Counted from the stretch's first letter, positions 11,390 to 52,847 are shown. The stretch: 54,258 nucleotides of DNA from Gemmatimonadota bacterium (GCA_007124095.1 SLFU01000155.1:1-54258), one strand, 5' to 3'. Program-made: numbers and translations. The notes: a model not told the origin generated them from the sequence alone.

Positions 11390-12151
11390 TCAAGTCGAGT
11401 CGAACGCCACCCCGGCCAGTCGCGCCCTCAGGACGTCCCGGTTCAGCCTGGAGATGTAGTCCACGCTGATCCCCTTCGGGCACGCCTCCTGGCAAGCTCC
11501 GTGGTTGGTGCAATTTCCGAAGCCCTCTTCGTCGTGCTGGTGGACCATCTGGATGGCCCGCTCGTAGCGCTCCGGCTGCCCTTGCGGCAAATAGGAGAGG
11601 TGCCCGGCCTTCGCAGCCGTGAAAAGCATGGCGGAGGCGTTCGGGCAGGCGGCAACACAGGCACCACACCCGATGCAAGCCGCTGCGTCGAAGGCCTTGT
11701 CGGCATCGGGCTTTGGCACCGGCACGGCGTTCGCGTCGGGAGCGCTCCCGGTCCGCACTGAAATGTATCCGCCCGACTCGATGATTCGATCGAAGGCGTT
11801 GCGGTCCACGACCAGGTCCCTCATGACCGGGAAGGCGTCCGCCCGCCACGGCTCGATCCAGAGCTCATCTCCGTCGGAGAAGGATCTCATATGGAGCTGA
11901 CAAACAGTCACGAGGTCCTCTGGCCCGTGGGCCATGCCATTCACCATCATCCCGCACGAGCCGCAGATCCCCTCCCGGCAGTCGTGCTCGAAGGCGATCG
12001 GATCGCCCCCGTCCCGGGTGAGTTCTTCGTTCACGAGGTCGAGCATGTCCAGGAAGGACATGCTCGGCGCCACATTCTTCGCTTGGTAGGTCTCAAAGTC
12101 TCCCTTGGACCCCGGTGTCCCCTGTCTCCATACGTGCAGCGTGAAGTCCAT
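11390..12151 (-). CDS. sdhB: Succinate dehydrogenase/fumarate reductase iron-sulfur subunit
   Basis: 253 aa; [69 protein letters not shown]. Confidence 0.93.
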
Positions 12152-14064
12152 TACTTATAGCTCCTCTGCGAAGGAGGCACGTGCTCGAAGATGAGCTCTT
12201 CGCGGTGGCGGGCCGGCTTGTGCCCGACGCCCGAGAACTCCCATACCGCCCCGTGCGAGAAGCGCTCATCGTCCCGGAGAGCCTCACCTTCCGGGGTGGT
12301 GTGCTCCTCCCGGTAGTGAGCGCCGCAGGATTCGTCACGTTCCAGCGCATCCCAGCACAGAAGTTCCGCGAACTCCAGGAAATCGGCCACGCGACCGGCC
12401 TTCTCGAGGGATTGGTTCAGGTTGTCGCCACTGCCCGGTACCCGAACGTCCCTCCAGAAGCTCTCCCTCAGCTCGGGAAGCTTGGCGAGGGCCTCCTTGA
12501 GCCCTGCCTCGCTTCGGGACATTCCGCAGAGGTCCCAGAGAAGGCGTCCGAGTTCCTGGTGGAAGGAATCGACGGTGCGATTCCCATTCACCGCTAGAAG
12601 TCGCTCTTGCACCTCCTCCACCTCACGAACTCCGTCCCGGAACGCCGGGTGGTCGGCGTCCACTCCGCCGGGAGCAACCTCGGCAAGGTGATTTCCGACC
12701 GTGAGCGGAACGATGAAGTAGCCATCCGCGAGTCCCTGCATCAGAGCGCTCGCACCCAGCCGGTTTGCCCCGTGGTCGGAGAAGTTCGCCTCGCCGATCG
12801 CGAAGAGGCCCGGGACCGTCGTCATGAGGTTGTAATCGACCCAGAGCCCGCCCATCGTATAGTGCGGGGCCGGATAGATCCGCATCGGGACCGTATAGGG
12901 ATCCTCTCCGGTAATCTTTTCGTACATCGCAAAAAGATTGCTGTAGCGCTCGGAGATCGCCTTCTTTCCGAGCCGCTGGATGGCGTCCCGAAAGTCGAGG
13001 TACACTCCATTCCTCCCCGGTCCGACTCCATGGCCCGCATCCACCATCTCCTTGGCCCTGCGCGAGGCGATGTCCCGGGGCGTCAGGTTTCCAAAGGAGG
13101 GATAGAATCGCTCGAGGTAGTAATCGCGCTCTGCATCCGGGATCTCGTGAGGGGGCCTTGAGTCTCCGGCCCGCACCGGGACCCAGATCCTCCCGTCGTT
13201 GCGGAGCGACTCACTCATCAGGGTCAGCTTGGATTGGTACTCGCCGCTCTGCGGAATGCATGTGGGATGGATCTGCGTAAAGCAGGGGTTCGCGAACGCC
13301 GCCCCTCGCTTGTGCGCCCGCCAGCTCGCGGTAACGTTGCAGCCCATCGCGTTCGTGGAAAGGAAGAAGGCGTTCGAGTAGCCCCCTGTCGCCAGGACGA
13401 CCGCGTCCGCGACGTGGGCCTCGATCTTCCCGGTCCCCAGGTCGCGGGTGATGATGCCGCGCGCCGCCCCGTCGATCACCACGACATCGAGCATCTCCTT
13501 CCGGAGGTGTGGGATGACCGTGCCCGCGGCCACCTGACGTTCCATCGCCTGGTAGGCGCCCAGGAGAAGTTGCTGTCCCGTCTGTCCCCGAGCATAGAAG
13601 GTTCTCGAAACCTGGGCGCCCCCGAAGGAACGATTCCCCAGATACCCCCCGTACTCGCGAGCGAAGGGCACGCCCTGCGCCACGGCCTGGTCGATGATGT
13701 TGAGGGAGAGCTGGGCCAACCGGTAGACATTGGCCTCACGGGAACGGAAATCCCCTCCCTTCACGGTGTCGTGAAAGAGTCGGTAGATGGAGTCCCCGTC
13801 ACCCTGATAGTTCTTGGCAGCGTTGATCCCACCCTGGGCCGCGATGGAATGGGCTCGCCGGGCCGAGTCGTGGAAGGTGAAGGCGTGGACCCGATAGCCG
13901 AGCTCACCCATCGTCGCCGCAGCCGAAGCACCGGCGAGGCCGGTGCCCACGACGATGACCTGATGTTTCCGTTTGTTCGCGGGATTCACCAGCTTCATCT
14001 CGAATCGGTGAAGGTCCCACTTGTCCGCCAGCGGGCCGGACGGAATCTTGGCGTCGAGCTCCAT
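12151..14064 (-). CDS. sdhA: Succinate dehydrogenase/fumarate reductase flavoprotein subunit
   Basis: About 637 aa; [95 protein letters not shown]. Confidence 0.94.
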
Positions 14065-14095
14065 TCCCCTCACACCTCCACAGTCAGCGAATTTC

Positions 14096-19311: not shown

Positions 19312-20697
19312 TCACGCGTCGTCCGGAAAATCCTCCAACAGTTCCTTCAGTCGCGCCAGGAAGCGCGCGGAATCGGCCCCGTCCACGATCCGGTGGTCGT
19401 AGCCGAGCGAAAAGATCGACCGCTTTCGAATCGCGATCGCGTCCTGGCCCGTCACCGGATCCTCCACCGCCACGACCCGCTTCTCAATCGCCCCCGTCCC
19501 CAGAATTCCCGACGTTCCCTTCGGGATGATCGGGAGCCCGACCATGGTCCCGAGCACCCCCGGGTTCGTGATCGCGAAGGTGCCTCCCTGGATTTCGGCC
19601 GGTCCGAGTTTGCGTTCCCGGGCACGCTCGGCGAGGTCGACGATAGCTTTCGCGATCCCCACCAGCGAAAGGTGGTCTGCGTCGCGGATGACCGGGACGA
19701 TGAGCCCCGGATCCAGATCGACCGCGATCCCGACATTCACATTCCCGCGGTAAATGATGTTGTTCCCGGACGCGGTTGCGTTCAGCATCGGGAACTCCCG
19801 AAGCACCCGGGACACGGCCCACACCACGAACGCGGTAAAGCTGACCCGGGCTCCCCGCGAAGCCCACTTCTCCTTGTTGCTACGGCGGAGGTGGTCCACC
19901 CGTGTGAAGTCGATCTCGATGAAGGAGTGGACGTGGGGAGCCACCCGCTTGGCCAGGACCATGTGCTCCGCCGTCAGGCGGCGCACCTTGTCCATCGTCT
20001 TGACCTCATCCGCATCCCGCACCGGAAATTCGGGGTTCTGCACCTCCCCGTAGAAGGTGGACCAGAGTTCCGATGGTGCGTGGGCCGCCGCCCGTTTTGG
20101 TTGGGGCGCGGGCGGCTGAGGATCCGGGGTGGCCTCGGACCGTTCCCGGGCCGGCTCCTCCTGCGCCACCTCCTCCTTCTCGCTCTCCAGGTAGTCGAGC
20201 ACGTCCTGCTTGGTGACCCGACCGGCATGGCCCGTCCCGGCCACGAGGGCCAGATCCACACCGTGCTCTTCAGCCATGCGCCGCACTACCGGGGTCGAAC
20301 GCTGCTTGAGCCTCTCCTCCTCGGACAGCCCCTCTTCGTCGTCGTCGGACGGCTTGGACTCGGACCGGGTCTCTTCGGCCGCAGGGGCCGCCTCGTCTTC
20401 GGCGACCTCGGCAGCCTCCCCTTCCCCATCCCTCGATGGCTCGGGCGCTGCGCCGCCTTCGGTGTCGAGGAAGGCGACGATCGTGCCGACCTCCACCGTC
20501 TCCCCTTCCTCGACGGCGATCTCCACGAGGGTGCCGGCCTGGGGCGCCGGAATTTCGGCGTCCACCTTGTCCGTGGAGATCTCCAGGATGGGCTCGTCCC
20601 GCTCGACGGCATCACCGACGTTCTTGAGCCACTTGGACACCGTTCCCTCGACGATGGATTCTCCCATCTGAGGCATGGGAACTTCGATTCGAGCCAC
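19312..20697 (-). CDS. 2-oxo acid dehydrogenase E2 component (dihydrolipoamide acyltransferase)
   Basis: 461 aa; lipoyl domain EISTDKVDAEIPAPQAGTL; E3-binding segment; catalytic YDHRIVDGADSARFL. Confidence 0.93.
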   Translation of the reverse strand: MARIEVPMPQMGESIVEGTVSKWLKNVGDAVERDEPILEISTDKVDAEIPAPQAGTLVEIAVEEGETVEVGTIVAFLDTEGGAAPEPSRDGEGEAAEVAEDEAAPAAEETRSESKPSDDDEEGLSEEERLKQRSTPVVRRMAEEHGVDLALVAGTGHAGRVTKQDVLDYLESEKEEVAQEEPARERSEATPDPQPPAPQPKRAAAHAPSELWSTFYGEVQNPEFPVRDADEVKTMDKVRRLTAEHMVLAKRVAPHVHSFIEIDFTRVDHLRRSNKEKWASRGARVSFTAFVVWAVSRVLREFPMLNATASGNNIIYRGNVNVGIAVDLDPGLIVPVIRDADHLSLVGIAKAIVDLAERARERKLGPAEIQGGTFAITNPGVLGTMVGLPIIPKGTSGILGTGAIEKRVVAVEDPVTGQDAIAIRKRSIFSLGYDHRIVDGADSARFLARLKELLEDFPDDA

Positions 20698-35515: not shown

Positions 35516-37137
35516 CGGACGCGACTCCGCACCCACTCGAGGAGAAGTCTCGTGGGAAAGCCGAGGCCTCCCTTCCGATGGTATGGGGCCCTCGGCTCCC
35601 CGTAGGCCGTGCCCGCGATGTCGAGATGAGCCCACCGGGCGTCCCCCACGAACTCCGAGAGAAACCAAGCAGCCGTGATGGTCCCTGCAGGCCGTCCCCC
35701 GACGTTCTTCAGGTCGGCCACGGGGCTTTCTAGCTGCTTGCGATAGGGCTTCCAGAGAGGCAGGGGCCAGCAACGCTCTGACGCCCGGTCTCCGGCAGCT
35801 CGGACCTCCTCAATCAGCTCCTCATCGTTCCCGAGCACCGCAGCCGCGTGGTGGCCCAGCGCCAGGACGCAGGCGCCGGTGAGCGTGGCGCAGTCCAGCA
35901 CGGCGTCGGGGCGGTACCGGTCCACAACGTAGGAGAGTGCATCCGCGAGAATCAGACGCCCTTCGGCATCGGTGTTGATGATCTCCACCGTCTTGCCGGC
36001 CCGAGTCCGGATCACGTCCCCCGGCTTGGTCGCCTTCCCCGAAAGCAGGTTCTCCGACGCCGGGACCACGCCCACCACGTTGAGGGGAAGGTCGAGAACA
36101 CCGATCGCCTTCATCGCTCCCAGGACGGCCGCGCCTCCGGACATGTCGTACTTCATATCCTCCATCCCCAGCGAAGGCTTGATGGAGATCCCACCGGAAT
36201 CGAACGTCAGCCCTTTCCCCACCAAGGCGATCGGGGAATCCCCCTCCTCACCCCCATGGTGCTCCAGGACAATGAGCCGCGGCTCCTGCTCGGAGCCGGC
36301 CGCAACGGAGAGGAGGGCCCCCATCCGCTCGGCCTCCATCTCTCCGGGACCGAGGATGCGGGAAGTGAAGCCGTGCTCCTCAGCCAGGGACAGGGCGACG
36401 CTCGCCAAGTGGGCGGGTGTCGCGACATTCCCGGGGCGCCACTGGAGCAAGCGCGCCAGGTTCTCCCCCTCCGCAAAGGCAGCTCCCGCCTTCAGGCTCC
36501 GCTCCGCTCCGTCGGACTCGCCATCTGGATGGATCCAGAGCTCGTTCACGAGTGGAGGCGGGGCGTCCTCACCCGAGCTCTGCGCCTTTCCGTCGTCGCC
36601 CTGATCCGGCCCGTCCCCGTTCGACCGGCTCTCCGCCGTGGACTTCAGCTCCCGAAAGTCCCACGCGGCCAACACTCCGCCTTCTGCAGCGGCCTGAACA
36701 CCCACTTCGACCCCGCCCATCCTGCTGACCGGCACATGAACCGAAATCGAAGTCAGGGAAAGGGATTCGGCCCGACGCACGGCCCGGGCGGCCACCTTGC
36801 GGGCGACTTCCGCATCGGCGTCCTCCCGGCGTCCCGCTCCGACGAAGGCGATCCGGGTCGGTCCACCCTCCTCCGACCGGTAATGGAGGAAGAAGTCCTC
36901 CTCCTTTCCCTTGAAATCCCCCGCCTTCCTCGCCCGTCCGAATGCGCCCCCGATCAGCTCGTCCGCACGGGCGGCGGCACCTTCGAGCCGCGCTTCGCCC
37001 TGGAAGACGGGGAGTACGAGAAGCGGGGTGTCATGGGAGAACAGGTCCCCCCGAATCAATCCTACCTTCATATGCGCGACGTCCGTGACCGGGTGTCCGA
37101 TGTAGCTGTTCGCGAAGTCCCCTTTCCGTCGCTTCAC
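35512..37137 (-). CDS. pepA: Leucyl aminopeptidase (M17)
   Basis: 541 aa; [61 protein letters not shown]. Confidence 0.94.
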
Positions 37138-38369
37138 ATGTTCCGGACGATCTGCTCCCCGAACTCCGAAGTGGAGACCTTTTTCGCACCCTCCATCTGC
37201 CGCTCGAGATCGTAGGTGACGGTCTTCTGCGCGATCGCCCCCTCGATGCCCCGATCAATCCGACGAGCCGCTTCGTCCCACCCCATGTGCTCGAGCATCA
37301 TGACCGCCGAAAGAATCAGAGATCCGGGATTCACGACATTCTTCCCGGCGTATTTGGGGGCGGTCCCATGTGTGGCCTCAAAAAGCGCGATCTCGTCGCC
37401 CACGTTGGCTCCGGGTGCCATCCCGAGGCCTCCGACCTGCGCCGCGCACGCATCGGAGAGGTAGTCTCCATTCAGATTCGGGGTGGCGAGGATGTCGTAC
37501 TCGTCCGGCCGGAGCAGCACCTGCTGGAACATTGCGTCGGCAATCCGGTCACCAATGACTATCCGCCCGGCGGGGTCCTCCCCTTCCCAGACTTTGGACT
37601 CGGGGAGGGTCTGTTCGGCGAAGCGCTCCCTCGCGACCTCGTAGCCCCAATCCGAGAAGGCCCCCTCGGTGAACTTCATGATGTTCCCCTTGTGGACGAG
37701 GGTCACCTTCGAGCGGTTCCGGTCCAGAGCGTACTGAATCGCAGCCCCGACATGGCGCTTGGTCCCGAACGGAGAGATCGGCTTGATCCCGATTCCGCTC
37801 TCCTCACGTACGGTCTCCCCCATCTCCTCGACGAGGAACTTCCGAACCTTCTCGGCCTCGGGAGTCTTGGACTCCCACTCGATCCCGGCGTAGACGTCCT
37901 CGGTGTTCTCCCGAAAGATGACCACATCGAGCTTCTCCGGTTCGCGCATCGGAGAGGGGACGCCCTTGATCCAACGGACCGGGCGAATGCAGGAGTAAAG
38001 ATCGAGCACCTTCCTCAAGGTCACGTTCAGCGAGCGAATTCCACCCCCGACCGGGGTCGTCAATGGGCCCTTGATCCCCACCTTGAAGTCACGCAGCGCC
38101 TGAAAGGTCGCCTCCGGAAGCCATTCCCCCGTGGCCTCGTGGACCTTCTCACCCGCGTCGATCGCCATCCACTTGATCGAACGGTCACCCTCATAGGCCT
38201 TCTCGACGGCGGCATCGACGACAGCCTGGGTCGCCTTCCAGATGTCGGGGCCGATTCCGTCCCCTTCGATGAACGGGAGGATCGGGTGGTCGGGGACCTG
38301 AAGCGATCCGTTTTCAACGGTGATGCGCTCCCCATCCTGGGGGACTCGGGCGGATTCAGATTCGCTCAT
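37134..38369 (-). CDS. icd: Isocitrate dehydrogenase (NADP-dependent type)
   Basis: 411 aa; [97 protein letters not shown]. Confidence 0.94.
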
Positions 38370-39536: not shown

Positions 39537-40607
39537 ATGATGGGGCGAACAACAGACCGTCTCCGAAGCATGGCCGGAGGGGGAGGGGTCCGTCTCCTCC
39601 TGGCGTCCTCCGTCCTCCTCCATCTCGGGCTGGCGGGCTGCGGGGACGTGGGTGGCCCCGTCGTGAACGTCTATAGCCACCGGCACTACGACACCGACCA
39701 AGCGCTCTTCGATCGATTCGCCGAGACGACCGGAATTCGAGTGCGTGTGGTGAGCGCTTCCGCCGACGAGTTGATCGCACGACTCGAACGGGAGGGCGAC
39801 GCCTCCCCGGCCGACGTGTTGATCACGGTCGACGCGGGGCGGCTCCACCGGGCGAAAGAAAGGGGACTACTGAGGCCGGTCGAGTCGCGGATCCTCTCGA
39901 ACTCGATCCCTCCACACCTCCGAGATCCGGATGGTTATTGGTTCGGCCTTACCCAAAGGGCCCGGATCCTCGCATATGCCCGGGACCGGGTGGATGCGAC
40001 GAGGCTCACGGACTACGAGTCCCTGACGAATCCGGAGTGGGAAGGGCGCATCCTCACTCGCAGCTCGGAGAACATCTACAACGTCTCCCTCCTCGCCTCC
40101 ATCGTGGCTGTGCATGGCAGTGACGGGGCCACGGAGTGGGCCCGGGGCGTGGTGGCCAACTTCGCTCGCCCTCCCCGCGGAAACGACACCGACCAGATCC
40201 GGGATGTGGCCGCCGGTGTCGGAGACGTGGCGATCGTGAACACCTACTACATCGGTCGTCTCCTCAACGCCGAGGACGAAGCGTCGCGGGAGCTGGTCGG
40301 CAATATCGGCATCATCTTCCCGAACCAGGGTGGACGGGGTACCCACATCAATGTGAGCGGCGCGGGCGTAACCGCCCACGCACCCAACCCGGAGCACGCC
40401 CTGGAGCTTCTCGAGTTCATGGTGAGCGAGGAGGCGCAGCGCGCCTTCGCAGAGGCCAACTTCGAATACCCGGTCCGGGAAGACATTCGATGGGCCCCCG
40501 CGCTCGAGGACTGGGGCACCTTTCAAACGGATACCCTCAGCCTCGAGAGGCTAGGGGAGCTGAACAACGACGCGGTGATCATCTTCGACCGAGTCGGATG
40601 GCGGTAG
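39537..40607 (+). CDS. Fe(III) ABC transporter substrate-binding lipoprotein (FutA/FbpA-like)
   Basis: 356 aa; lipobox LGLAGC; VVNVYSHRHYDTDQALFDRFAETTGIRV; NTYYIGRLL; GNIGIIFPNQGGRGTHINVSGAGV. Confidence 0.9.
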   Translation: MMGRTTDRLRSMAGGGGVRLLLASSVLLHLGLAGCGDVGGPVVNVYSHRHYDTDQALFDRFAETTGIRVRVVSASADELIARLEREGDASPADVLITVDAGRLHRAKERGLLRPVESRILSNSIPPHLRDPDGYWFGLTQRARILAYARDRVDATRLTDYESLTNPEWEGRILTRSSENIYNVSLLASIVAVHGSDGATEWARGVVANFARPPRGNDTDQIRDVAAGVGDVAIVNTYYIGRLLNAEDEASRELVGNIGIIFPNQGGRGTHINVSGAGVTAHAPNPEHALELLEFMVSEEAQRAFAEANFEYPVREDIRWAPALEDWGTFQTDTLSLERLGELNNDAVIIFDRVGWR

Positions 40608-42307
40608 CGACCGCGGTAGCCCGGCTCGGGCGCCGAGTGCAGCACACCTGGGACCGGTACCGGCCCCGCGGCCGTCAGCTCTTCACTCCCTGGACCGTGG
40701 CCACCCTGATTGCGGTGGCCCTCGTGCTGCTTCCCCTGGTCTCGATCTTCGTCGGTGTCTTCGCCGAGTCCAGCGACACCTGGGATCACCTCGCCTCCAC
40801 AGTCCTCTGGGACTACCTCCGGAACTCCGCCCTCCTGGTGGTGGGGGTGGGCGGACTCGCGCTCGTCCTGGGCGTCGCCACTGCCTGGCTGGTCACGACC
40901 TGCGAGTTTCCCGGGCGGAGGGTCTTCGGTTGGGCCCTCATCCTCCCCCTCTCGGTGCCGACCTACATCATGGCGTATACCTACGCCGAGCTGATGGCGC
41001 ATTCCGGGCCGATCCAGGGGGCCCTGCAAACCGTGCTCGATCCGGCCACTACTGCGGGCCTTCGGAGCGCCCTCATGTCCCTTCCGGGCGCAGGGGTCAT
41101 GATGGCCCTGGTCCTCTACCCCTATGTCTACCTCATCACCCGAACGTCCTTCTTGAAGCAGTCCGGAGGGATCCTCGAGACCTCCCAGATCCTGGGCAAG
41201 TCGCCCTGGTCCACCTTCTTCCGGGTCGCGCTCCCGATGGCCCGTCCTGGGGTGGTGGCCGGGGTGACGCTGGTCCTCATGGAAGTCCTCAACGAGTACG
41301 GCGCAGTAACCTACTTCGGGGTGAGCACCTTCACGACCGGGATCTTCCGGGCGTGGTTCTCCCTGGGAGACGCCCCGGCCGCAATCCGCCTCTCCGGCTG
41401 CCTCCTCCTTTTCGTCTTCGTCCTGATCCTCCTCGAGCGGGCGCAGCGCGGCAGGGCCCGCTTCGACGACGGACCCCGCAGCCACCGGCCCGTGGTGCGA
41501 TTCGAACTCGAGGGGTGGCGGAGGTGGGCCGCCTTCGGCACCTGTGCCCTCCCGGTCTTTTTTGGCTTCCTCCTCCCCGTCGCGCAGCTCGGGAGCTGGG
41601 CCTTCCAGGTGGCTCCCGAAGTCCTGGATCGGCGATTCCTCGTCCTCGCGGCCAACTCTTTCGGGCTGGCGATCGTAGCCGCCTTGATCACCGTAGCCGT
41701 GGGGCTATTGATCGTCTACTCGGTCCGCCTTTCCCCGACCCCACTCCTGAAGCTCTCCGCTCGGGCCTCCTCCCTGGGATACTCGATTCCGGGAGCAGTC
41801 ATTGCGGTCGGGATCCTCGTTCCCTTCATCTGGCTCGACCGTCAAATTTCGGGCCTCCTCCAGGCCACCACCGGTCTCTCGCCCGGCCTGATCCTGACGG
41901 GAACCGTCACCGCCCTCATTTTCGCCTACGTCGTACGCTTCCTGGCTGTGTCCCTCAACCCCGTGGAATCCGGATTCGAGCGAACCTGTGGGAGCCTGGA
42001 CGAGACGTCCCGGTCGCTGGGGGCACCTCCGCTCAAGACCTTGGTGAAAGTCGACATCCCCCTCCTCCGAGGCACGCTCATCTCCGCCGGGCTGCTTGTT
42101 TTCGTGGACGTCTTGAAGGAGCTTCCGCTCACCCTGATCCTCCGGCCCTTCGACTTCGACACCCTGGCAACTCGGGCATTCCAACTTGCCATGGACGAAC
42201 AGGTTGCACGCTCCGCCCTCCCCGCCCTCTTGATCATCGCGACGGGGATGCTACCGGTGATTGGGCTCTCCCGGCTCATCAGCCTGATTGGCCGCAAGCG
42301 GATCTGA
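40598..42307 (+). CDS. Iron ABC transporter permease (fused double permease, FbpB-like)
   Basis: MAVATAVARLGRRVQHTWDRYRPRG...; two permease halves with EVLNEYGAVTYFGVSTFTTGIFRAW and VDVLKELPLTLILRPFDFDTLATRAFQ; ATG overlaps upstream stop. Confidence 0.9.
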   Translation: MAVATAVARLGRRVQHTWDRYRPRGRQLFTPWTVATLIAVALVLLPLVSIFVGVFAESSDTWDHLASTVLWDYLRNSALLVVGVGGLALVLGVATAWLVTTCEFPGRRVFGWALILPLSVPTYIMAYTYAELMAHSGPIQGALQTVLDPATTAGLRSALMSLPGAGVMMALVLYPYVYLITRTSFLKQSGGILETSQILGKSPWSTFFRVALPMARPGVVAGVTLVLMEVLNEYGAVTYFGVSTFTTGIFRAWFSLGDAPAAIRLSGCLLLFVFVLILLERAQRGRARFDDGPRSHRPVVRFELEGWRRWAAFGTCALPVFFGFLLPVAQLGSWAFQVAPEVLDRRFLVLAANSFGLAIVAALITVAVGLLIVYSVRLSPTPLLKLSARASSLGYSIPGAVIAVGILVPFIWLDRQISGLLQATTGLSPGLILTGTVTALIFAYVVRFLAVSLNPVESGFERTCGSLDETSRSLGAPPLKTLVKVDIPLLRGTLISAGLLVFVDVLKELPLTLILRPFDFDTLATRAFQLAMDEQVARSALPALLIIATGMLPVIGLSRLISLIGRKRI

Positions 42308-44064: not shown

Positions 44065-45207
44065 ATGCGAGGCATCCGCAGCCTGATCTTCCCCCGAGGG
44101 GCCTGGTTTCACTTCGGTGCCAGCGCCTGGATCGTCGCCGCTCTCGCCCTCGCCCTGACGTCCTGCGAAGGTGCAGCCGACTTGGAGGGTCGCACTGCCG
44201 AGGAATTTTACGACGGCGTGCGCCTCGACGTCATCGTCCCCTTCGGCCCCGGCGGTGGCACGGACACCTGGGCCCGCCTGGTGGCGTCGTTCCTTCAACA
44301 GGAGTTGGGACCGGGAAGCAGCGTTCAGATCATCAACATCGCCGGCGCCTCCAGCATCGCGGGAGCGAACGACTTCGCGCTTCGGCGGCGCCCGGATGGC
44401 CGGACGGCCCTGGTCTCGGCAGGCACCACCTTCTTCGCCTACCTCCTGGGCGAGCCGATGGTGCGGTTCGACTACCGGGAGATGAGGGCCATCCTCTCCT
44501 CCCCCGCCGGGGGCGTCGTCTTCATCCGTCCGGAGTTGGGGATCGGGTCGGCCGCCGCACTCCGAGATCTCCAGGAACAGGTCGTCTACGGTGGGATCTC
44601 CGCGACGGGAAACGATCTCCTCGCCCTCCTCGCCTTCGAACTCCTGGAGCTCGACTTCCTCCCGGTGCTCGGATACGGAACGAAGGGTGCGAGTCGCATT
44701 GCCTTCGAGCAGGGCGAGACGAACATCGAGTACCAGACGTCGCCGGCATACCGATCGAATGTGGTCCCCCTCGTGGAACGCGGCCTCGCCGTGCCCCTCT
44801 TCAGCTTCGGACTCCTGAACTCGGCGGGAGAGGTCGTACGGGATCCCGTTTTCCCCGACCTGCCCACCGTGTTCGAGGTGTATCGAAGCCTCAACGGACA
44901 GGATCCCTCCGGCCCAGCGTGGGACGCGTACCGAGCTATGCTCGCAGCGGGAATCGAAATGCAGAAGTCGCTCTGGATGCATCAGGACGCTCCGGAAGCA
45001 TCGGTGGAGGCCCTCCGCACCGCGGCCCGGCGGGTGATCGTCAACCCGGAGTTCCTGGAGCAGGCGACCCAACGGATGGGCGACTATCCCTTCTACGTGG
45101 GTGAGGACGTGGAAGACCTCTTCCGGCTGGCCGTGGAGATCCCCCCCGAAGCCATGGACTGGTTGACCGAGCTCCTCCGGGTGCGTTACGGACTGGACCG
45201 CATGTGA
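44065..45207 (+). CDS. Tripartite tricarboxylate transporter substrate-binding protein (TctC family), lipoprotein-like
   Basis: 380 aa; lipobox-like LALTSC; LDVIVPFGPGGGTDTWARLVASFLQQEL; TFFAYLL...FDYREMRAILS. Confidence 0.85.
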   Translation: MRGIRSLIFPRGAWFHFGASAWIVAALALALTSCEGAADLEGRTAEEFYDGVRLDVIVPFGPGGGTDTWARLVASFLQQELGPGSSVQIINIAGASSIAGANDFALRRRPDGRTALVSAGTTFFAYLLGEPMVRFDYREMRAILSSPAGGVVFIRPELGIGSAAALRDLQEQVVYGGISATGNDLLALLAFELLELDFLPVLGYGTKGASRIAFEQGETNIEYQTSPAYRSNVVPLVERGLAVPLFSFGLLNSAGEVVRDPVFPDLPTVFEVYRSLNGQDPSGPAWDAYRAMLAAGIEMQKSLWMHQDAPEASVEALRTAARRVIVNPEFLEQATQRMGDYPFYVGEDVEDLFRLAVEIPPEAMDWLTELLRVRYGLDRM

Positions 45208-45208
45208 C

Positions 45209-46690
45209 GTGATCGAGGCCGCCTTCCACGCGCTCCTGGCCCTCCTGGAGCCCGCACGGATCCTCATGATGGTTGCGGGTGTGGGGGTGGGTCTTTGTGT
45301 GGGGCTCATTCCGGGGCTTTCGGGGACTGTGGGCATGTCCTTGGTCCTCCCCTTCGTCTTCGGGATGGATCCTTCTTCCGCGATGGCGTTGCTCATCGGG
45401 ATGGTGGCGGTCATGCACACGGCAGACACCTTTCCCTCCGTGCTACTCGGCGTCCCGGGCTCCTCCGGTTCTCAGGCCACGATTGTGGACGGCTACCCCC
45501 TCGCACGAAAAGGCGAGGCCTCTCGTGCGCTGAGTGCCGCGTTCTTCTCTTCGATGATCGGGGGGCTGATTGGAGCCGTCGCAGTATTCCTCTTTCTGCC
45601 GGTGACCCGCCCGCTCGTCCTTGCGCTCGGCTCCCCCGAGCTCTTCATGCTCACGATCCTGGGGCTCTCGATGGTGGGGGTCCTGGCGGGACAGAGGCCC
45701 CTTCTGGGAATCGTGTCGGGTACATTGGGGCTTCTCCTGGGCGCTGTGGGTGCGGCTCCGGCCGCACCCCACTACCGCTTCACCTTCGACGCCCTCTACC
45801 TCTTCGACGGCATCCCTCTGGCGGTGGTGGCCCTGGGGCTCTTCGCACTCCCGGAGCTCCTGGACCTCCTCGTGCGGGGCAGAGCCATCGCCGATGTTCC
45901 GAAGCTGGGGTCCGGATGGATGACCGGCTTGAAGGACGTCATAGGGAACCGCTGGCTGGTCTTCCGTTCGTCCGTCCTCGGAGTAGGCGTGGGGCTCATC
46001 CCCGGACTTGGGGGAAGCGTCGTCGACTGGTTGAGTTACGGTCAGGCCGTTCAGTCCTCGAGTGACCGCCAGGAGTTCGGGCGAGGCGACATCCGGGGGG
46101 TGATCGCCCCTGAGAGCAGCAACAACGCGAAGGAAGGGGGCACCCTCATCCCCACCCTCATCTTCGGGATCCCGGGAAGTGGCACCACCGCGGTACTCCT
46201 GGGTGGGCTTCTCCTTCTGGGGCTCGAGGCCGGCCCCCAGATGTTGGACGCCAACCTCGACGTGACCCTTCTCATCCTCTGGACGCTGGCACTGGCCAAC
46301 GTCGTGGGCACGCTCGCCTGCCTCCTCCCTTCGCGGTTCATCGCCCGCCTCTCCTTCGTGCCGGCGTCTCGCCTGGCCCCGTTTCTCCTCGTCATCATGC
46401 TCTTCGGAGCATACCAGAGCACCCGTCACTGGGGGGACCTGGTCGCCTTCGGGGCGATTGGACTGCTGGGCTGGCTGATGAAGCAAAACGGATGGCCCCG
46501 TCCCCCACTCCTCATCGGGTTCGTGCTGGCGGCAGCGTCCGAGCGCTACCTCTGGATCTCGTGGACCCGCTATGGCTGGGAGTGGATGACGCACCCCGGA
46601 GTGCTCATCATCGGAGCGGTCACGGTCGTCCTGACGATCACCGGAGCCCGGATGAAACGCTCCGCGGTACCCGGAGGCGGGGCCCCGTGA
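45209..46690 (+). CDS. Tripartite tricarboxylate transporter large permease (TctA family)
   Basis: 493 aa; GVGVGLCVGLIPGLSGTVGMSLVLPFVFGMDPSSAMALLIGM; PESSNNAKEGGTLIPTLIFGIPGSGTTAVLLGGLLLLGLEAGPQML. Confidence 0.94.
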   Translation: MIEAAFHALLALLEPARILMMVAGVGVGLCVGLIPGLSGTVGMSLVLPFVFGMDPSSAMALLIGMVAVMHTADTFPSVLLGVPGSSGSQATIVDGYPLARKGEASRALSAAFFSSMIGGLIGAVAVFLFLPVTRPLVLALGSPELFMLTILGLSMVGVLAGQRPLLGIVSGTLGLLLGAVGAAPAAPHYRFTFDALYLFDGIPLAVVALGLFALPELLDLLVRGRAIADVPKLGSGWMTGLKDVIGNRWLVFRSSVLGVGVGLIPGLGGSVVDWLSYGQAVQSSSDRQEFGRGDIRGVIAPESSNNAKEGGTLIPTLIFGIPGSGTTAVLLGGLLLLGLEAGPQMLDANLDVTLLILWTLALANVVGTLACLLPSRFIARLSFVPASRLAPFLLVIMLFGAYQSTRHWGDLVAFGAIGLLGWLMKQNGWPRPPLLIGFVLAAASERYLWISWTRYGWEWMTHPGVLIIGAVTVVLTITGARMKRSAVPGGGAP

Positions 46691-47169
46691 CCACCTCTCC
46701 CCTGGCGGTCCGCCTGGCCTTCCTTGCCCTTACGGGACTCGTCTTCCTCTGGGTGGCGTGGGAAGCAGCGGGATTCCCGGACCGTGCCCGTATCTTCCCG
46801 CAGACGATCGCCGTCCTGGGCTTTCTGGTGGTCGCCGCCAAGATCCTCTTGCTGGTGAGAACCGATGATGTGGACCCGGACGTCATCGCCGCCCAGGAGC
46901 GCGACCCGGATTCGGTAACGACGATTGGCGAGGAGTGGCGCCAGGGCATGCCCTTCCTGGGTGCCTTCGGAGGATACGGGGCCGGAATCGCACTCCTGGG
47001 CTTTCTACCGGCCTCCTTCCTCTTCGTCCTCTCTTTTCTTCGCCACTTCGACCGGATGAGTTGGGCGAGAGCGACGGCCAGCGCCGTTCTCTTCACCCTG
47101 GTCCTCCTCTTCCTCACCCGCTTGATCGGGCTCGAGCTCCCGGAGGGCCTCCTGGGCATCGGGGCGTGA
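46687..47169 (+). CDS. Tripartite tricarboxylate transporter small permease (TctB family)
   Basis: 160 aa membrane protein from GTG at 46687 (overlaps TctA stop); AWEAAGFPDRARIFPQTIAVLGFLVVAAKILLLV. Confidence 0.85.
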   Translation: MTTSPLAVRLAFLALTGLVFLWVAWEAAGFPDRARIFPQTIAVLGFLVVAAKILLLVRTDDVDPDVIAAQERDPDSVTTIGEEWRQGMPFLGAFGGYGAGIALLGFLPASFLFVLSFLRHFDRMSWARATASAVLFTLVLLFLTRLIGLELPEGLLGIGA

Positions 47170-47206
47170 ACCCGTGCGACGACGGGCTCAGCCCTCTCGG
47201 ACGCCA

Positions 47207-48274
47207 TTATCCCACATTGCGACCCGCATCACCCTTCCGCTTCCACTGGGCCATTGCCTTTCCTGCGACGATCGGCGCGCCAAGGAGCACCACGACAAGC
47301 CGCACCAGATGGTGCGTCACCACGAAGGCCAGGTCGGCACCTGCCACCAAGGCGAGCACCACCATCTCCGCCTGTCCTCCCGGCGCAAAAGCCAGGAAGG
47401 CCTCGAGGGGCGGAGCAAAACCGCTGAGTGCCACCCCTTCGGCAAAGACGAAGGTGATCAGCGCCAGAACGAGGCAGAAGCCCAAGCCGGCCGACACATC
47501 CCGCCGCAACTCGGCAAAGGTGACGCCCAGATACGCCGCCCCGATGCCCGCGCCGATAATGAACTGTGCCGCCAGGATCGCCTCCGCCGGAGGCCGGAAC
47601 GTCAACAGTCCCGAAAGGCTGAGCAACGCCGACACGATCATCGGTCCCAGGATGGCAGCTCCGAAGAGCCGTACTTTCTCCGCAGCCCACCATCCGAAGA
47701 GACCCGATCCTACCATGAGCCCGAGCTGGAGCAGCGGCACCTCGAAGACGGGCGCGCCCGGCGCCTCGGTGAGCGGCACGTCCCAGATTCCAGTGATGAG
47801 AAGGGGCGCGAGCGTGACGATCGTGAGCACCCGGGTGGCGTGGACCAGCGTGAGCGTTCGCACCTTCGCTCCGGCCTCTTCCCCGAAGAGGAGCATTTCC
47901 TGCAATCCGCCAGGCACGGCGGCGTAGTAGGCCGTAGGGACGTCGTAGCCGCAAACTTTGCGGAAGAAGGGATACCCCACCCCCCAGATGGCCAAGACGA
48001 AGAGAGGGACGAGGGCCACCGAATAGGCCATCTCGGGAAGCCGCTGGGCCAGTTCGGGGGTGATCGAGGCGCCGACCGCGACACCGAGCACGGCCCGCAT
48101 CGCCCTCCCGAGACCGCCCATGTCCTGGAGTGGCGCTCCGGAAAGGGCCCCCACGAGACAGGCCGCGAGGGGACCCAGCAGGAAGGGAAGCGGAAGCTGG
48201 AGGATCTCGAAGGCGACGACACCGAACCCTGACAACGCTACGGTGAGGAGTCGCCGCCTAGTCAGAAAGGGCAT
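47207..48274 (-). CDS. AbrB family membrane protein
   Basis: MPFLTRRRLLTVALSGFGVVAFEILQLPLPFLLGPLAACLVGAL...; PGGLQEMLLFGEEAGAKVRTLTLVHATRVLTIVTLAPLL; AFAPGGQAEMVVLALVAGADLAFVVTHHLVRLVVVL. Confidence 0.87.
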   Translation of the reverse strand: MPFLTRRRLLTVALSGFGVVAFEILQLPLPFLLGPLAACLVGALSGAPLQDMGGLGRAMRAVLGVAVGASITPELAQRLPEMAYSVALVPLFVLAIWGVGYPFFRKVCGYDVPTAYYAAVPGGLQEMLLFGEEAGAKVRTLTLVHATRVLTIVTLAPLLITGIWDVPLTEAPGAPVFEVPLLQLGLMVGSGLFGWWAAEKVRLFGAAILGPMIVSALLSLSGLLTFRPPAEAILAAQFIIGAGIGAAYLGVTFAELRRDVSAGLGFCLVLALITFVFAEGVALSGFAPPLEAFLAFAPGGQAEMVVLALVAGADLAFVVTHHLVRLVVVLLGAPIVAGKAMAQWKRKGDAGRNVG

Positions 48275-49754
48275 GCCGCGCAGCGCCCTGCCCCGCAATG
48301 CGTCCAAACACCGCGCCAGAGGTGAGCCCCGCCCCTCCCGGGTAACCGTGAAAGAAAACTCCCCCCACAATCTCTCCGCAGGCAAAGAGCCCCGGGATCG
48401 GATCTCCATCGTCCCGGGTCACGGCACCGCCATCATCCACCTTCAGGCCCCCATAGGTGAAGGTGATTCCACCCGTCACCGGAAACGCCTTGAAGGGAGG
48501 GGTGTCGAGCCGCTGCGCCCAGTTCGACTTCGGCAGGGCAAGTCCCCGTGTCCCGCGTCCGTCCTTGACTGTCGGGTCGAAGGGGACTTCCTCCATGATC
48601 GATTCGTTGAAGGCTTGGAGCGTCTGCAGGGCACTTGCCCGATCCACCCCCGCCAGCTTCCCGACCAGTCCATCCAAAGTCGTGTCCTCCACCCAGTGCG
48701 CGTCGTGGAATCTGTACTCGGCATACAGGAGGTCCTCCACCTTCGCGTCGAACACCTGCCAGGCGAACTGTCCGGGCTGCTCGAGCACCGCCCGTCCGAA
48801 CTGCGCGTAGGTGTAGTTTCTGAAGTCGGCCCCTTCGTCGACGAAGCGCTCGCCACGGGCATTCAACATCACGCCCAGGAAGTAGCAGATCTTCCGGTAG
48901 TGCTTTCGGTCGCCGTGCGGGATCTCCAGGTTCCCGAAGTCCTTCATGTGCAGGTCCATGGGGGTGGCATGGCACCCAGCGAAGAACCCGTACGGCATGG
49001 CACCCAGGTCCAGGGCCATCCTGAGGCCGTCGCCGGTATTGTGCGGTGTCCCTCGCACCTTGGCGCCAGCCCAGATCTCCCCCATGTGCCTGCGTCGCAT
49101 CTCTTCGCTCGCCTCGAACCCCCCGCAGCCCAGTACCACGGCTCCGGCCCGGATCTCCTCGTCACCCTCGGGCGTGGTTGCCTTGACCCCGACGACGCGA
49201 TCCTCCTCGACGAGAAGTCCGGTAGCCGCGCAGTCGTACCGCACCACACCCCCTCCGGCTTCGAAGGCCGTCCGCTCCGTTTCGAACAGACCCACGCCCT
49301 CCCGGGCCGAGGCAAGAGTCAACCCTCCCCAGAAGACGTACCGACCCTCCTTCTCGAAACTCTGGCGGTCGTAGATCGGTTCGAACTTCACACCCCGCTC
49401 CGCGAGCCAGCGCATCGTCGGGTAGCTGCGGCTGATCAGGACCTCCTGCTCCGGACTCAGGGCCCTACCTTCGTTGAACTGGAGGAGGTCGTTGGTAAAG
49501 GTCTCCGCGGTGTAGGCACCGAAGTCGGTCCGTTCGAGCCTGGGGTCGGCCGGATCCCGGAGGAGAGGCAAGAGGTCGTCCTTCCCGTCGTACACGAAAC
49601 GCATCGCCCCCGCCGTATACTGGGTATTTCCGCCGGCCATCTCCCGTGGCGCCTTCTCGATGACGAGGATCCGCGTCGCATCCTCCTGCGCCGCCAGTGC
49701 CGCACATAGGGCTGCATTCCCCGATCCGACCACCACCACATCCCACCTCTCCAT
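48258..49754 (-). CDS. FAD-dependent dehydrogenase of TcuA (tricarballylate dehydrogenase) family
   Basis: MERWDVVVVGSGNAALCAALAAQEDATRILVIEKAPREMAGGNTQYTAGAMRFVYDG; TGGITFTYGGLKVDDGGAV; GLFACGEIVGGVFFHGYPGGAGLTSGAVFGRIAG. Confidence 0.87.
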   Translation of the reverse strand: MERWDVVVVGSGNAALCAALAAQEDATRILVIEKAPREMAGGNTQYTAGAMRFVYDGKDDLLPLLRDPADPRLERTDFGAYTAETFTNDLLQFNEGRALSPEQEVLISRSYPTMRWLAERGVKFEPIYDRQSFEKEGRYVFWGGLTLASAREGVGLFETERTAFEAGGGVVRYDCAATGLLVEEDRVVGVKATTPEGDEEIRAGAVVLGCGGFEASEEMRRRHMGEIWAGAKVRGTPHNTGDGLRMALDLGAMPYGFFAGCHATPMDLHMKDFGNLEIPHGDRKHYRKICYFLGVMLNARGERFVDEGADFRNYTYAQFGRAVLEQPGQFAWQVFDAKVEDLLYAEYRFHDAHWVEDTTLDGLVGKLAGVDRASALQTLQAFNESIMEEVPFDPTVKDGRGTRGLALPKSNWAQRLDTPPFKAFPVTGGITFTYGGLKVDDGGAVTRDDGDPIPGLFACGEIVGGVFFHGYPGGAGLTSGAVFGRIAGQGAARHALSD

Positions 49755-49848
49755 GGTCCGCCTCTTCCTTCCCACGTCACGTGGTTTCCACAGGGTGACA
49801 AGCATTGCCGCCGCCCGCATCGCACTCTAGTCTAGATCCTGGCTCCGA

Positions 49849-49879
49849 GACCGTCCATGGAGATTCGAAGACCGTCCAT
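49849..49879. promoter_or_regulatory. Phased direct repeat GACCGTCCAT in the TcuA/PrpF divergent promoter
   Basis: AGACCGTCCATgGA and AGACCGTCCATtGA, start-to-start spacing 21 bp. Confidence 0.5.
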
Positions 49880-49948
49880 TGAAGGGTGGGGCCCTTTGAT
49901 CCGGACATCGGCCCAGCAACTCCGACTCCCCCACCAATCGAGCCACGG

Positions 49949-51046
49949 ATGACCCAACGCGCCATTCCCTGTACGCTCATGCGAGGCGGTAGCTCCAAGG
50001 GGCCCTATTTCCGGCTCGCGGATCTCCCCGCCGATCCGGATGCGCGTGCCCGGGTCCTCCTTGCGATCATGGGCTCCCCCGACGCACGGCAGATCGACGG
50101 TATCGGGGGCGCCGATCCCCTCACCAGCAAGGTTGCCATCGTCGCACCCTCCACCCGGCCGGATACGGATGTGGACTACCACTTCGCCCAGGTGGCCGTG
50201 GACCGCGAACTGGTCGACACCAGCCCGTCGTGTGGGAACATGCTGTCCGGCGTCGGTCCCTTCGCTATCGAAACCGGCATGGTTGCAGCAACCGGAGACG
50301 AGACACGCATCCGCATTTTCGAGGTAAACACCGGCAGTCGGATCGAAGCGACCGTCCGGACCAGGAATGGCACCGTCACCTACGACGGAGAGGTCGAGAT
50401 CTCCGGAGTTCCCGGCACGGCCGCACCGATCCAGCTGGACTTCCTGGACATCGAAGGATCGAAAACGGGCGCCCTGCTCCCTACGGGTCACGTACAAGAC
50501 GAGATCGACGGCATTGGGGTCACCCTCATCGACGTCGCGGTGCCCATGATGCTGCTGCGTGCCGAGGACCTTGGAAAGACCGGACATGAGACCCGCGCCG
50601 AGTTGGATTCGGACACCGGATTTCTTGCCCGCATCGAGGCGCTGCGCCGTGAGGCCGGTCACCGGATGGGGCTGGGTGATGTGGCCGATCGCGTCATTCC
50701 CAAAGTCGGCATCCTGGCCCCCCCATGGGGGGGCGGGCATATTGCCGCCCGCTACCTCGTCCCCCATAGGACGCACGCTGCGATGGCCGTGACCGGATCC
50801 ATCTGCATCGCCTCTTGTGCTGTCCTGGAAGGCTCAGTCTCCGACGGCCTCGCCACTCGTCCTCCAGGAGATGAACGGCGAATTGTGATCGAACATCCTT
50901 CGGGAGCGATCGAGGTCGCGTTGTGGTCGCAGGGAAGTGGTACCGAGCTACACGTCCTGCGCGCCGGAATCGTCCGGACCGCGCGTAAGCTCATGAGCGG
51001 TGAAGTCTATTGCCCTGAAGGAGCCTTCGAGCTCCCCGGCGGATGA
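49949..51046 (+). CDS. PrpF-family isomerase, 4-oxalomesaconate tautomerase-like
   Basis: 365 aa; MTQRAIPCTLMRGGSSKGPYFRLADLPADPDARARVLLAIMGSPDARQIDGIGGADPLTSKVAIVAPS; SPSCGNMLSGVGPFAIE. Confidence 0.9.
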   Translation: MTQRAIPCTLMRGGSSKGPYFRLADLPADPDARARVLLAIMGSPDARQIDGIGGADPLTSKVAIVAPSTRPDTDVDYHFAQVAVDRELVDTSPSCGNMLSGVGPFAIETGMVAATGDETRIRIFEVNTGSRIEATVRTRNGTVTYDGEVEISGVPGTAAPIQLDFLDIEGSKTGALLPTGHVQDEIDGIGVTLIDVAVPMMLLRAEDLGKTGHETRAELDSDTGFLARIEALRREAGHRMGLGDVADRVIPKVGILAPPWGGGHIAARYLVPHRTHAAMAVTGSICIASCAVLEGSVSDGLATRPPGDERRIVIEHPSGAIEVALWSQGSGTELHVLRAGIVRTARKLMSGEVYCPEGAFELPGG

Positions 51047-51251
51047 TGGGGGATGCTCGGAGAGCCGGACAGCGACGCAACGGTGCACCACGGCGTTGCT
51101 TTCGGGCCCGGGAGCCAGTGTGGTGATTCAGAGATTCGACGAAGGAACGAGGGGTCCGGCGCGGCGGGGAGGCCAAGGGTCCGACCTGCTGCGACCGGAC
51201 GCCCGGCCCCCACGCCACCACCGCCACTCCGGGGCCTAACCGTGGAAGTGC

Positions 51252-52847
51252 CTACGATGCGGCCACATCCCACCCGCCTCGGGGCGGCGGATGATTCGCC
51301 GCGTTGGTTCCGGAGATGAATCCAAATGCAGCGCCATAGCCCAGGAAGCCAAGGTAGGCATAGTTCCCGATATTACCGATGTCGATTCCGGCGGCGTAAA
51401 GACCCTGGATCGGCCGACCCGTCATCGAAACCACCTGGCCCTCGGGATTCGCCTTCAATGCGCCAAAGGAGCCCGTAATGCCCGTTTGGCCCAATGCCGC
51501 GTAAAAGGGCGGCTCCAGGAGCGGGACTGCATTATCGGGATCCTCCTTGGGAATAGGGAGCGCCCAGGCCCGACCATTTCGAGCGGCCTCGTTGTATTCA
51601 GTGAGCTCCCGGAGCACGAGCTCCGCCGGCATCCCTCGCCCCCACCCCTCCATCTGATTGGCCAACTCCTCGAGCGAATCGGCTCTGGCGACCGGTGCCC
51701 CGGCCTGCCTGAAAGCCTCGAACTTGTCGATATCGCCCAAGCCATGCTCTGCCAGGGCCCTCGTCTCGTTGATCACATGGTCCCAGATGTAGGCTGCGCT
51801 GGCATCCGGTTGCCGCGAGGTTTCCACATTGAGCACCTGCTCACCGGGTGAAGTCGACCCATACCTCGTGTACCCATGGTAGTCGCGGGCCGTCACCTTG
51901 CCCTTGGATTCGTCCGTGAAGCGCTTTCCATAGAGGTTCAAGGCGACGCACCACTGCCCATGATACATCGAATAGTTGATCAGGGGATGAGTGAACTGAG
52001 CGGGGCGCGCCGGCAGAAGGTGCCCGTAGAATGAGTCGAAGCCCCCATCCGACGGAGCAGCCCCGATGCTCTTGGCCGCCAGGAAGCCATCGCCCGTCAG
52101 GGGGGGCTGCAGTCCATTGAACCCGCAATTGCGCTGATGCAGACTATTGAAGTCACGGGTCAGATGCTGGTTGACCATCTCGGCGTTGCCCGCCCAACCT
52201 CCGGTGGCCAGGATGACGGAATTGGCCAGGATCCGCACTGGCCCATCGGGGCCTTCGGCCAATACTCCGATCACCTCGTTCCTGGAATTGGCGAGAAGTC
52301 GCAGGAGCGGCGTCTCTACCAGCAGCGTCCCCCCCTGACTCTCGAAGTCCGACACCATGAAATTCGAGAACGCCACCGGAGGACGTCCGATGCTCCGACT
52401 CAGCGGGTTGTCCGTCGCAGGTCCGATCGGCGCGTCAATGCTTTCGTAGAACGCATATGCGAGTGGCAATCCGTCGGCCAACGCACGCTGGAGGTCGGGG
52501 TCGCCCCAGGGACTGGCGTCCCGCATCTCCTGATAATTACTGGCACCGCCGTGAACGCCGCCCGCAGACTCTCGCATCGTGCCGCCAGGGTCCGCGGCCT
52601 TTTCCAGAAGGATTACGTCAGCTCCAAGGCGTTGTGCCCTCACCGCTGCCGTCAGCCCCCCCATGCCCGCTCCCGCCACCACCACATCCGCCCTGCGCTC
52701 GGGAACAGCCTCGATCGACACCGACTCGGCACGGGCGTTGGAAAAGCCTCCCATGGTGGCCGCAGCGGCACCCGCCCCGGCAACTCCGAGAAAGCGCCTG
52801 CGTGAAACCTTGTTCTCCTTCGCGGAAGAGTGGGGATGGTCGGCCAT
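51252..52847 (-). CDS. Tat-exported FAD-dependent oxidoreductase (fumarate reductase/3-ketosteroid dehydrogenase flavoprotein fold)
   Basis: 531 aa; Tat motif SRRRFLGVAGAGAAAATMGG; VVVAGAGMGGLTAAVRAQRLGADVILLEKAADPGGTMRESAGG; GLYAAGIDIGNIGNYAYLGFLGYGAAFGFISG. Confidence 0.87.
   Translation of the reverse strand: MADHPHSSAKENKVSRRRFLGVAGAGAAAATMGGFSNARAESVSIEAVPERRADVVVAGAGMGGLTAAVRAQRLGADVILLEKAADPGGTMRESAGGVHGGASNYQEMRDASPWGDPDLQRALADGLPLAYAFYESIDAPIGPATDNPLSRSIGRPPVAFSNFMVSDFESQGGTLLVETPLLRLLANSRNEVIGVLAEGPDGPVRILANSVILATGGWAGNAEMVNQHLTRDFNSLHQRNCGFNGLQPPLTGDGFLAAKSIGAAPSDGGFDSFYGHLLPARPAQFTHPLINYSMYHGQWCVALNLYGKRFTDESKGKVTARDYHGYTRYGSTSPGEQVLNVETSRQPDASAAYIWDHVINETRALAEHGLGDIDKFEAFRQAGAPVARADSLEELANQMEGWGRGMPAELVLRELTEYNEAARNGRAWALPIPKEDPDNAVPLLEPPFYAALGQTGITGSFGALKANPEGQVVSMTGRPIQGLYAAGIDIGNIGNYAYLGFLGYGAAFGFISGTNAANHPPPRGGWDVAAS

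Follow-up and report, generated by a model that had tools for sequence, protein, structure and literature searches.

The tcuRABC genes of Salmonella enterica encode one of the closest described systems, in which the FAD-dependent dehydrogenase TcuA converts tricarballylate to cis-aconitate, as cited in PMC10468695, and hands its electrons via TcuB to the membrane (PMC8593673, PMC10468695). In Bacillus velezensis, TarA, an aconitate isomerase of the PrpF superfamily, works with an importer (PMC11495376). PrpF of S. oneidensis, which also interconverts trans- and cis-aconitate, needs K73 and C107, and variants at these positions are impaired (PMC5690661). The substrate range of the TTT importers is little explored (PMC5812351). 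Alphaproteobacterial islands with the order TctC-TctAB-OMT-AbrB-GntR-TcuAB are known from annotation, for example in Paracoccus alcaliphilus p305818, Gemmobacter fulvus and Pacificitalea; a published description of a TTT island with TcuA, PrpF, OMT or AbrB was not found in the open-licence literature.

The locus described here lies in the window, by which we mean the whole 54,258-nucleotide stretch of DNA that was analysed, which is contig C167 of a draft genome measuring 2.83 Mb, with a completeness of 95.8% and a contamination of 2.27%. Like S. enterica tcuRABC, it encodes an FAD-dependent dehydrogenase of the TcuA type, recognised by NF006130 and with a predicted aconitate-like alkene as product. 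The enzyme belongs, however, to a long subfamily that falls outside TIGR02485 (about 36% identity to canonical TcuA), TcuB and TcuC are missing, and a TTT importer, a PrpF-type isomerase and an AbrB protein are added. With the alphaproteobacterial TcuAB islands the locus shares the type of transporter; its isomerase, also of the OMT type, is up to 69% identical to theirs, and its AbrB up to 58%, in the Tcu islands of Rhodobacterales. Those islands, however, carry canonical TcuA and TcuB, as well as genes for GntR or two-component regulators and for IDH-family, LDH2 and D-2-hydroxyacid dehydrogenases, none of which is found next door in the window. The islands of a Paracoccus liaowanqingii plasmid and of Rhizobium albus have a long TcuA-like protein (70% and 66% identical to that of the window, respectively) and an OMT (66% and 67%); TTT and AbrB occur together in both and no intact TcuB was found, but both have extra genes for IDH-family and other dehydrogenases, and a broken tcuB is still present in P. 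liaowanqingii. The tar system of B. velezensis also pairs a PrpF-superfamily isomerase with an importer (TarB), a likeness drawn from its description, but this importer is of the MFS type and there is no flavoenzyme.

Organization of the locus

Seven intact genes with open frames lie between positions 44065 and 52847 (Table 1), in agreement with the first-pass annotation, which had listed TctC, TctA, TctB, AbrB, TcuA-like, PrpF-like and Tat-FAD genes. Their orientation divides the block into four units: a tightly packed TctCAB operon; the overlapping TcuA-like and AbrB genes; PrpF, divergent from the TcuA-like gene with 194 bp between them; and the Tat-FAD gene, convergent with PrpF. Orientation and overlap rule out a single operon for the whole block. 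Since the start of AbrB overlaps the stop of the TcuA-like gene, the two are probably translationally coupled. The region between the TcuA-like gene and PrpF contains a direct repeat, AGACCGTCCATKGA, which is a possible operator or regulator site; no regulator gene that would show co-regulation was found near the block. An Rfam scan of the whole window returned zero matches, and counts from a promoter and terminator scan were not above those of shuffled sequences. The GC content of the block (63-66%) is like that of its surroundings, and the GC profile carries no trace of recent transfer. The contig also has genes of central metabolism within positions 2453-38369 of the window, three of which are listed in Table 1.

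Table 1. Features of the locus and of the surrounding window (positions counted from the first letter of the window)
Feature	Position	Strand	Remarks
SdhA	12151-14073		central metabolism gene
2-oxo-acid dehydrogenase E2 (SucB-like)	19312-20697		central metabolism gene
NADP isocitrate dehydrogenase	37134-38369		central metabolism gene
TctC-type periplasmic receptor	44065-45207	+	N terminus resembles a lipobox (LALTSC); divergent subfamily of TTT substrate-binding proteins
TctA large permease subunit	45209-46690	+	PF01970, 408 bits
TctB small permease subunit	46687-47169	+	PF07331, 51.6 bits; GTG start, overlaps TctA stop
AbrB-family membrane protein	47207-48274	-	PF05145, 251 bits; TIGR03082, 168 bits; start at 48274
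Long TcuA-like FAD dehydrogenase, 498 aa, TcuB-less subfamily	48258-49754	-	start at 49754; NF006130, 571 bits
Intergenic region TcuA-like/PrpF	49755-49948		14-bp direct repeat at 49848-49861 and 49869-49882; 21-bp spacing
PrpF-superfamily isomerase, LigU/GalD/YbhH (4-oxalomesaconate tautomerase) branch	49949-51046	+	ATG at 49949; NF033377, 507 bits
Tat-signal FAD oxidoreductase	51252-52847	-	FAD_binding_2; N-terminal SRRRFLG motif

The importer, the flavoprotein and the isomerase

Both permease subunits of a TTT importer are recognised by their Pfam models (408 bits for TctA and 52 bits for TctB). The Pfam model for TctC is silent on the receptor even at E ≤ 1; the assignment of this protein to the TctC/Bug receptors comes from a phmmer match to Bug27 (1.7e-8), from an AlphaFold model (pLDDT 86) with Foldseek TM scores of up to 0.79 to Bug27 and a terephthalate-binding protein, and from its contiguity with TctAB. 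The receptor is 55% identical to the TctC that adjoins a TcuA-like gene in a genome of the same family (G070), whose TctA is 73-74% identical to that of the window, the sole TctA of its genome. A solved structure related to the window AbrB was not found; the protein perhaps acts as an auxiliary membrane transporter.

The flavoprotein scores well above the cut-off of NF006130 (369 bits). Its reading as TcuA proper was not borne out: against the narrower equivalog TIGR02485 the protein reaches 241 bits, under the cut-off of 372.55, and six other long proteins also stay under it (230-309 bits), whereas three canonical TcuA proteins from TcuB-bearing clusters score 569-608 bits. In a tree of 39 proteins the canonical TcuA make up a single clade, set off by a long branch (support 100/100), and the window protein groups with those of P. 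liaowanqingii and R. albus in a separate clade (100/100). The FAD, GCH/QCH and TFT motifs are common to the two types, which differ in the loop that holds the catalytic arginine by reference to flavocytochrome c fumarate reductase (EGADFRNYTY in the window, EGEDVWPKRY in canonical TcuA) and in the GGN-x3-T-x2 region, differences that may bear on function. The fold predicted for the window protein places it with the urocanate/fumarate reductases. As judged from their sequences, the long TcuA-like flavoproteins are an uncharacterised offshoot of the known enzyme TcuA. Elsewhere, their genes are found with ABC importers, LeuCD, PrpD and aldolases, and because of these settings, and of the altered substrate-loop motifs, the substrate of the long enzyme may be different from tricarballylate.

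The isomerase falls within the 4-oxalomesaconate tautomerase equivalog NF033377 (cut-off 440 bits) and outside the 2-methylaconitate isomerase equivalog TIGR02334 (224 bits against a cut-off of 440.55), a score so far under the cut-off that a PrpF of the 2-methylcitrate cycle is ruled out. Its closest solved relatives include YbhH (6otv) and LigU (6p3j). It belongs to the same branch of the superfamily as LigU, GalD and YbhH, and its conserved Lys and Cys (codons at about 50129 and 50231) align with the active-site pair of LigU, YbhH and PrpF and are invariant in 54 relatives.

Conservation of the island and exclusion of the Tat-signal flavoprotein

When GTDB genomes were scanned with the PrpF protein, 33 loci with close relatives came up, 30 of them with at least 3 kb of upstream DNA. 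TctA lies on the same strand within 2.5 kb upstream in 25 of the 30. These 25 loci contain AbrB in 16 cases, a gene of the isocitrate/isopropylmalate dehydrogenase family in 12, a TcuA-type gene in 15 (canonical in 10 and long in 5) and TcuB in 9, counts that are lower bounds, some loci being truncated where the contig or the 10-kb flank stops, and that do not represent independent events, since the loci are mutually related. The two TcuA types never share a locus (0/25), and no long-type locus has TcuB. A reverse search of a plasmid collection from TctA recovers the same islands. Five of seven further annotated records have OMT directly downstream (Rhizobium rosettiformans, Gemmobacter, Alloyangia, Palleronia and Pacificitalea); Pannonibacter and Sagittula stellata do not. 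The island of Shinella has an AcnA gene within it. The association of TctCAB, PrpF, AbrB and a TcuA-type protein is far beyond chance, and the synteny check called for in the first-pass annotation finds these families co-conserved. A view of the block as particular to this genome is not supported: many Alphaproteobacteria have the TctC-TctAB-OMT-AbrB-Tcu arrangement, in most cases together with canonical TcuA and TcuB. The island in the window is a TcuB-less form of this widespread TTT-linked, Tcu-like system.

The Tat-exported flavoprotein, earlier proposed as a further step of the pathway, has no such place. Its gene is convergent with PrpF, and none of the 25 TctA-PrpF loci has a close homologue nearby. 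The genome of the window (G000) has eight paralogs, 53-79% identical, located in the window and on contigs C1 (four copies), C49, C163 and C178, and, among the genomes sampled from the family, just two more have relatives. The seven copies elsewhere are near cyclase, PQQ and cytochrome genes; on C1, a PQQ dehydrogenase, two PF04199 cyclases and a cytochrome c accompany two successive copies, and a cyclase is also next to the copy in G020. Synteny and paralogy rule out the Tat-FAD protein as a pathway member; it is part of a different system for periplasmic oxidation and only a neighbour of the island. Eight copies in one genome represent a lineage expansion.

The absence of TcuB and a possible electron acceptor

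No match to the TcuB model TIGR02484 is present in the whole genome of the window. TcuC likewise has nothing above its cut-off in this genome, the best match being an MFS background match of 35 bits against 445. The absence of both, as well as the presence of the TTT importer where TcuC would be, had been anticipated from the sequence and is upheld. Seven long-type genomes lack TcuB (R. albus, G036, G070, G167, the gammaproteobacterial MAGs G335 and G336, and that of the window), and two further long-type MAGs give only weak matches of 31-34 bits to part of the model (cut-off 246.6); canonical genomes, used as positive controls, gave clear matches. A tblastn search at E ≤ 1e-3 near the long TcuA-like genes returned only the broken copy of the P. 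liaowanqingii plasmid, which has stop codons and lies beside PrpF (L071, 13167-13662). An intact long tcuA-like gene is found elsewhere in this same island, and canonical tcuA was not detected in the 25-kb stretch analysed there. The simplest reading is that TcuAB was replaced by a TcuB-independent enzyme.

Since TcuB is missing from the genome of the window, the electron step must differ from that of Salmonella. Both ETF genes adjoin a long TcuA-like gene in Bradyrhizobium, an ETF-domain gene does so in G036, and the genome of the window encodes ETF, which makes ETF a reasonable acceptor; a general carrier of this kind probably takes up the electrons of the reduced flavin. A broader proposal, to which we give somewhat less than an even chance, is that the long TcuA-like proteins, at present annotated as TcuA by default, are a TcuB-independent dehydrogenase family whose electrons go to a soluble carrier, be it ETF or a different one, and that, together with TTT and an OMT-type isomerase, forms an uncharacterised tricarboxylate pathway spread across distant phyla by gene exchange.

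A model for polycarboxylate use and its alternatives

The interpretation that we prefer, at slightly better than even odds, is that the block at 44065-51046 is a polycarboxylate uptake-and-funnelling island, combining TTT import, FAD-dependent oxidation and isomerisation to aconitate. TctC, whose family and fold are clear, would capture a presumed di- or tricarboxylate in the periplasm, and TctAB would import it. In the cytoplasm the TcuA-like enzyme would remove two hydrogens from the succinate-like part of a saturated acid, or act on an unsaturated one, an oxidation in keeping with its fold and family but whose direction and substrate are presumed. The PrpF/OMT-type isomerase, by means of the Lys and Cys that it retains, would move or flip the double bond to yield cis-aconitate or a close analogue, a reaction suggested by these residues. 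The product would then enter the TCA cycle by aconitase and, in a putative link, the isocitrate dehydrogenase whose gene this contig also carries. The external substrates are most likely C6 tricarboxylates of the tricarballylate or trans-aconitate type.

Against this model, the isomerase is placed in the OMA-tautomerase equivalog and not in an aconitate-isomerase model. The varied settings and the substrate-loop motifs of the long enzyme, the differing nearest relatives of the genes and the absence of a regulator gene nearby also speak against it. The isomerase might be a true 4-oxalomesaconate tautomerase, and the island would handle intermediates of the gallate or protocatechuate-4,5-cleavage type (OMA, 4-carboxy-2-hydroxymuconate, PDC), either taken up or made from aromatics. 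The 507 bits to NF033377 and the presence of LigU among the closest solved relatives agree with such a role, as do a CHA-aldolase-like gene that follows the TctA-linked OMT in Propylenella (L014), PIG-L and CHA aldolase genes nearby in Roseivivax (L073) and a tannase-family gene near the island of a gamma MAG (L025). The genome of the window, however, has no match to the LigB-type extradiol dioxygenase (PF02900), no hydratase or aldolase gene adjoins its PrpF, by which it differs from LigU and GalD, and in Roseivivax the hydratase/aldolase-linked OMT branches away from the TctA-linked one, with which the window protein groups. The missing LigB and the OMT tree disfavour aromatic OMA metabolism, which we regard as unlikely; aconitate-type chemistry is the likelier for the isomerase.

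Scarcely more probable is that the island serves another polycarboxylate, for example a C4-C7 acid such as a derivative of citraconate, itaconate, an alkylsuccinate or a hydroxytricarboxylate, and that the long enzyme acts on another succinate analogue, which an esterase may release. This would fit the motifs around the substrate loop, which differ between the canonical and long enzymes, and the company that long TcuA-like genes keep elsewhere (LeuCD, PrpD, HpcH/HpaI aldolases and CocE/S15-type hydrolases), including S15 genes beside TctC or TcuA-like genes in G036, G070 and G167. Yet one and the same TctCAB-OMT-AbrB setting carries either canonical TcuA with TcuB or the long TcuA-like protein, which suggests similar chemistry. 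That the genes have no shared pathway, a native TctCAB operon having come to lie by chance beside separately acquired TcuA-AbrB and PrpF, is improbable: the transcription units are separate and the nearest relatives of TctA differ from those of the enzymes, but these families keep company in Alpha- and Gammaproteobacteria alike and in three relatives from the class of the window genome, with TctCAB and the TcuA-like gene in G070 and G167, and with PrpF too in G036.

If the preferred model of uptake and funnelling to aconitate is true, TTT would gain a defined catabolic partner set, and the substrate of the widespread TTT-OMT-AbrB island would be assignable in culturable Rhodobacterales and Rhizobiales. 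Public databases would also be seen to give the name tricarballylate dehydrogenase wrongly to a large subfamily of flavoproteins, which is without the electron-transfer partner of the known enzyme.

Origin of the genes and neighbouring functions

The TctA of the window is nearest to those of G070 and G036, of the same family, whereas the nearest relatives of the TcuA-like protein, of PrpF and of AbrB are alphaproteobacterial. PrpF occurs in 3 of 96 genomes of the family, that of the window included, and one of the other two is a short, weak match. The TctCAB operon adjoins a long TcuA-like gene in G070 and G167, and G036 has both together with PrpF and PrpD. Because the relatives of TctA and of the other proteins differ in this way, and because the modules recur in these three genomes, the island is a mosaic, put together from modules that tend to travel together.

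The hydrolase genes beside TctC or TcuA-like genes in G070, G167 and G036 (L084, L085 and L087) are of the S15/PepX_C (CocE) type; these, and the tannase-family gene near the island of the gamma MAG, point to an ester as a possible source of the substrate. At 39537-42307 the window also encodes an ABC importer, in which a substrate-binding protein is paired with a fused double permease and which weakly resembles 2-aminoethylphosphonate/sulfate systems, with scores far under the model cut-offs.
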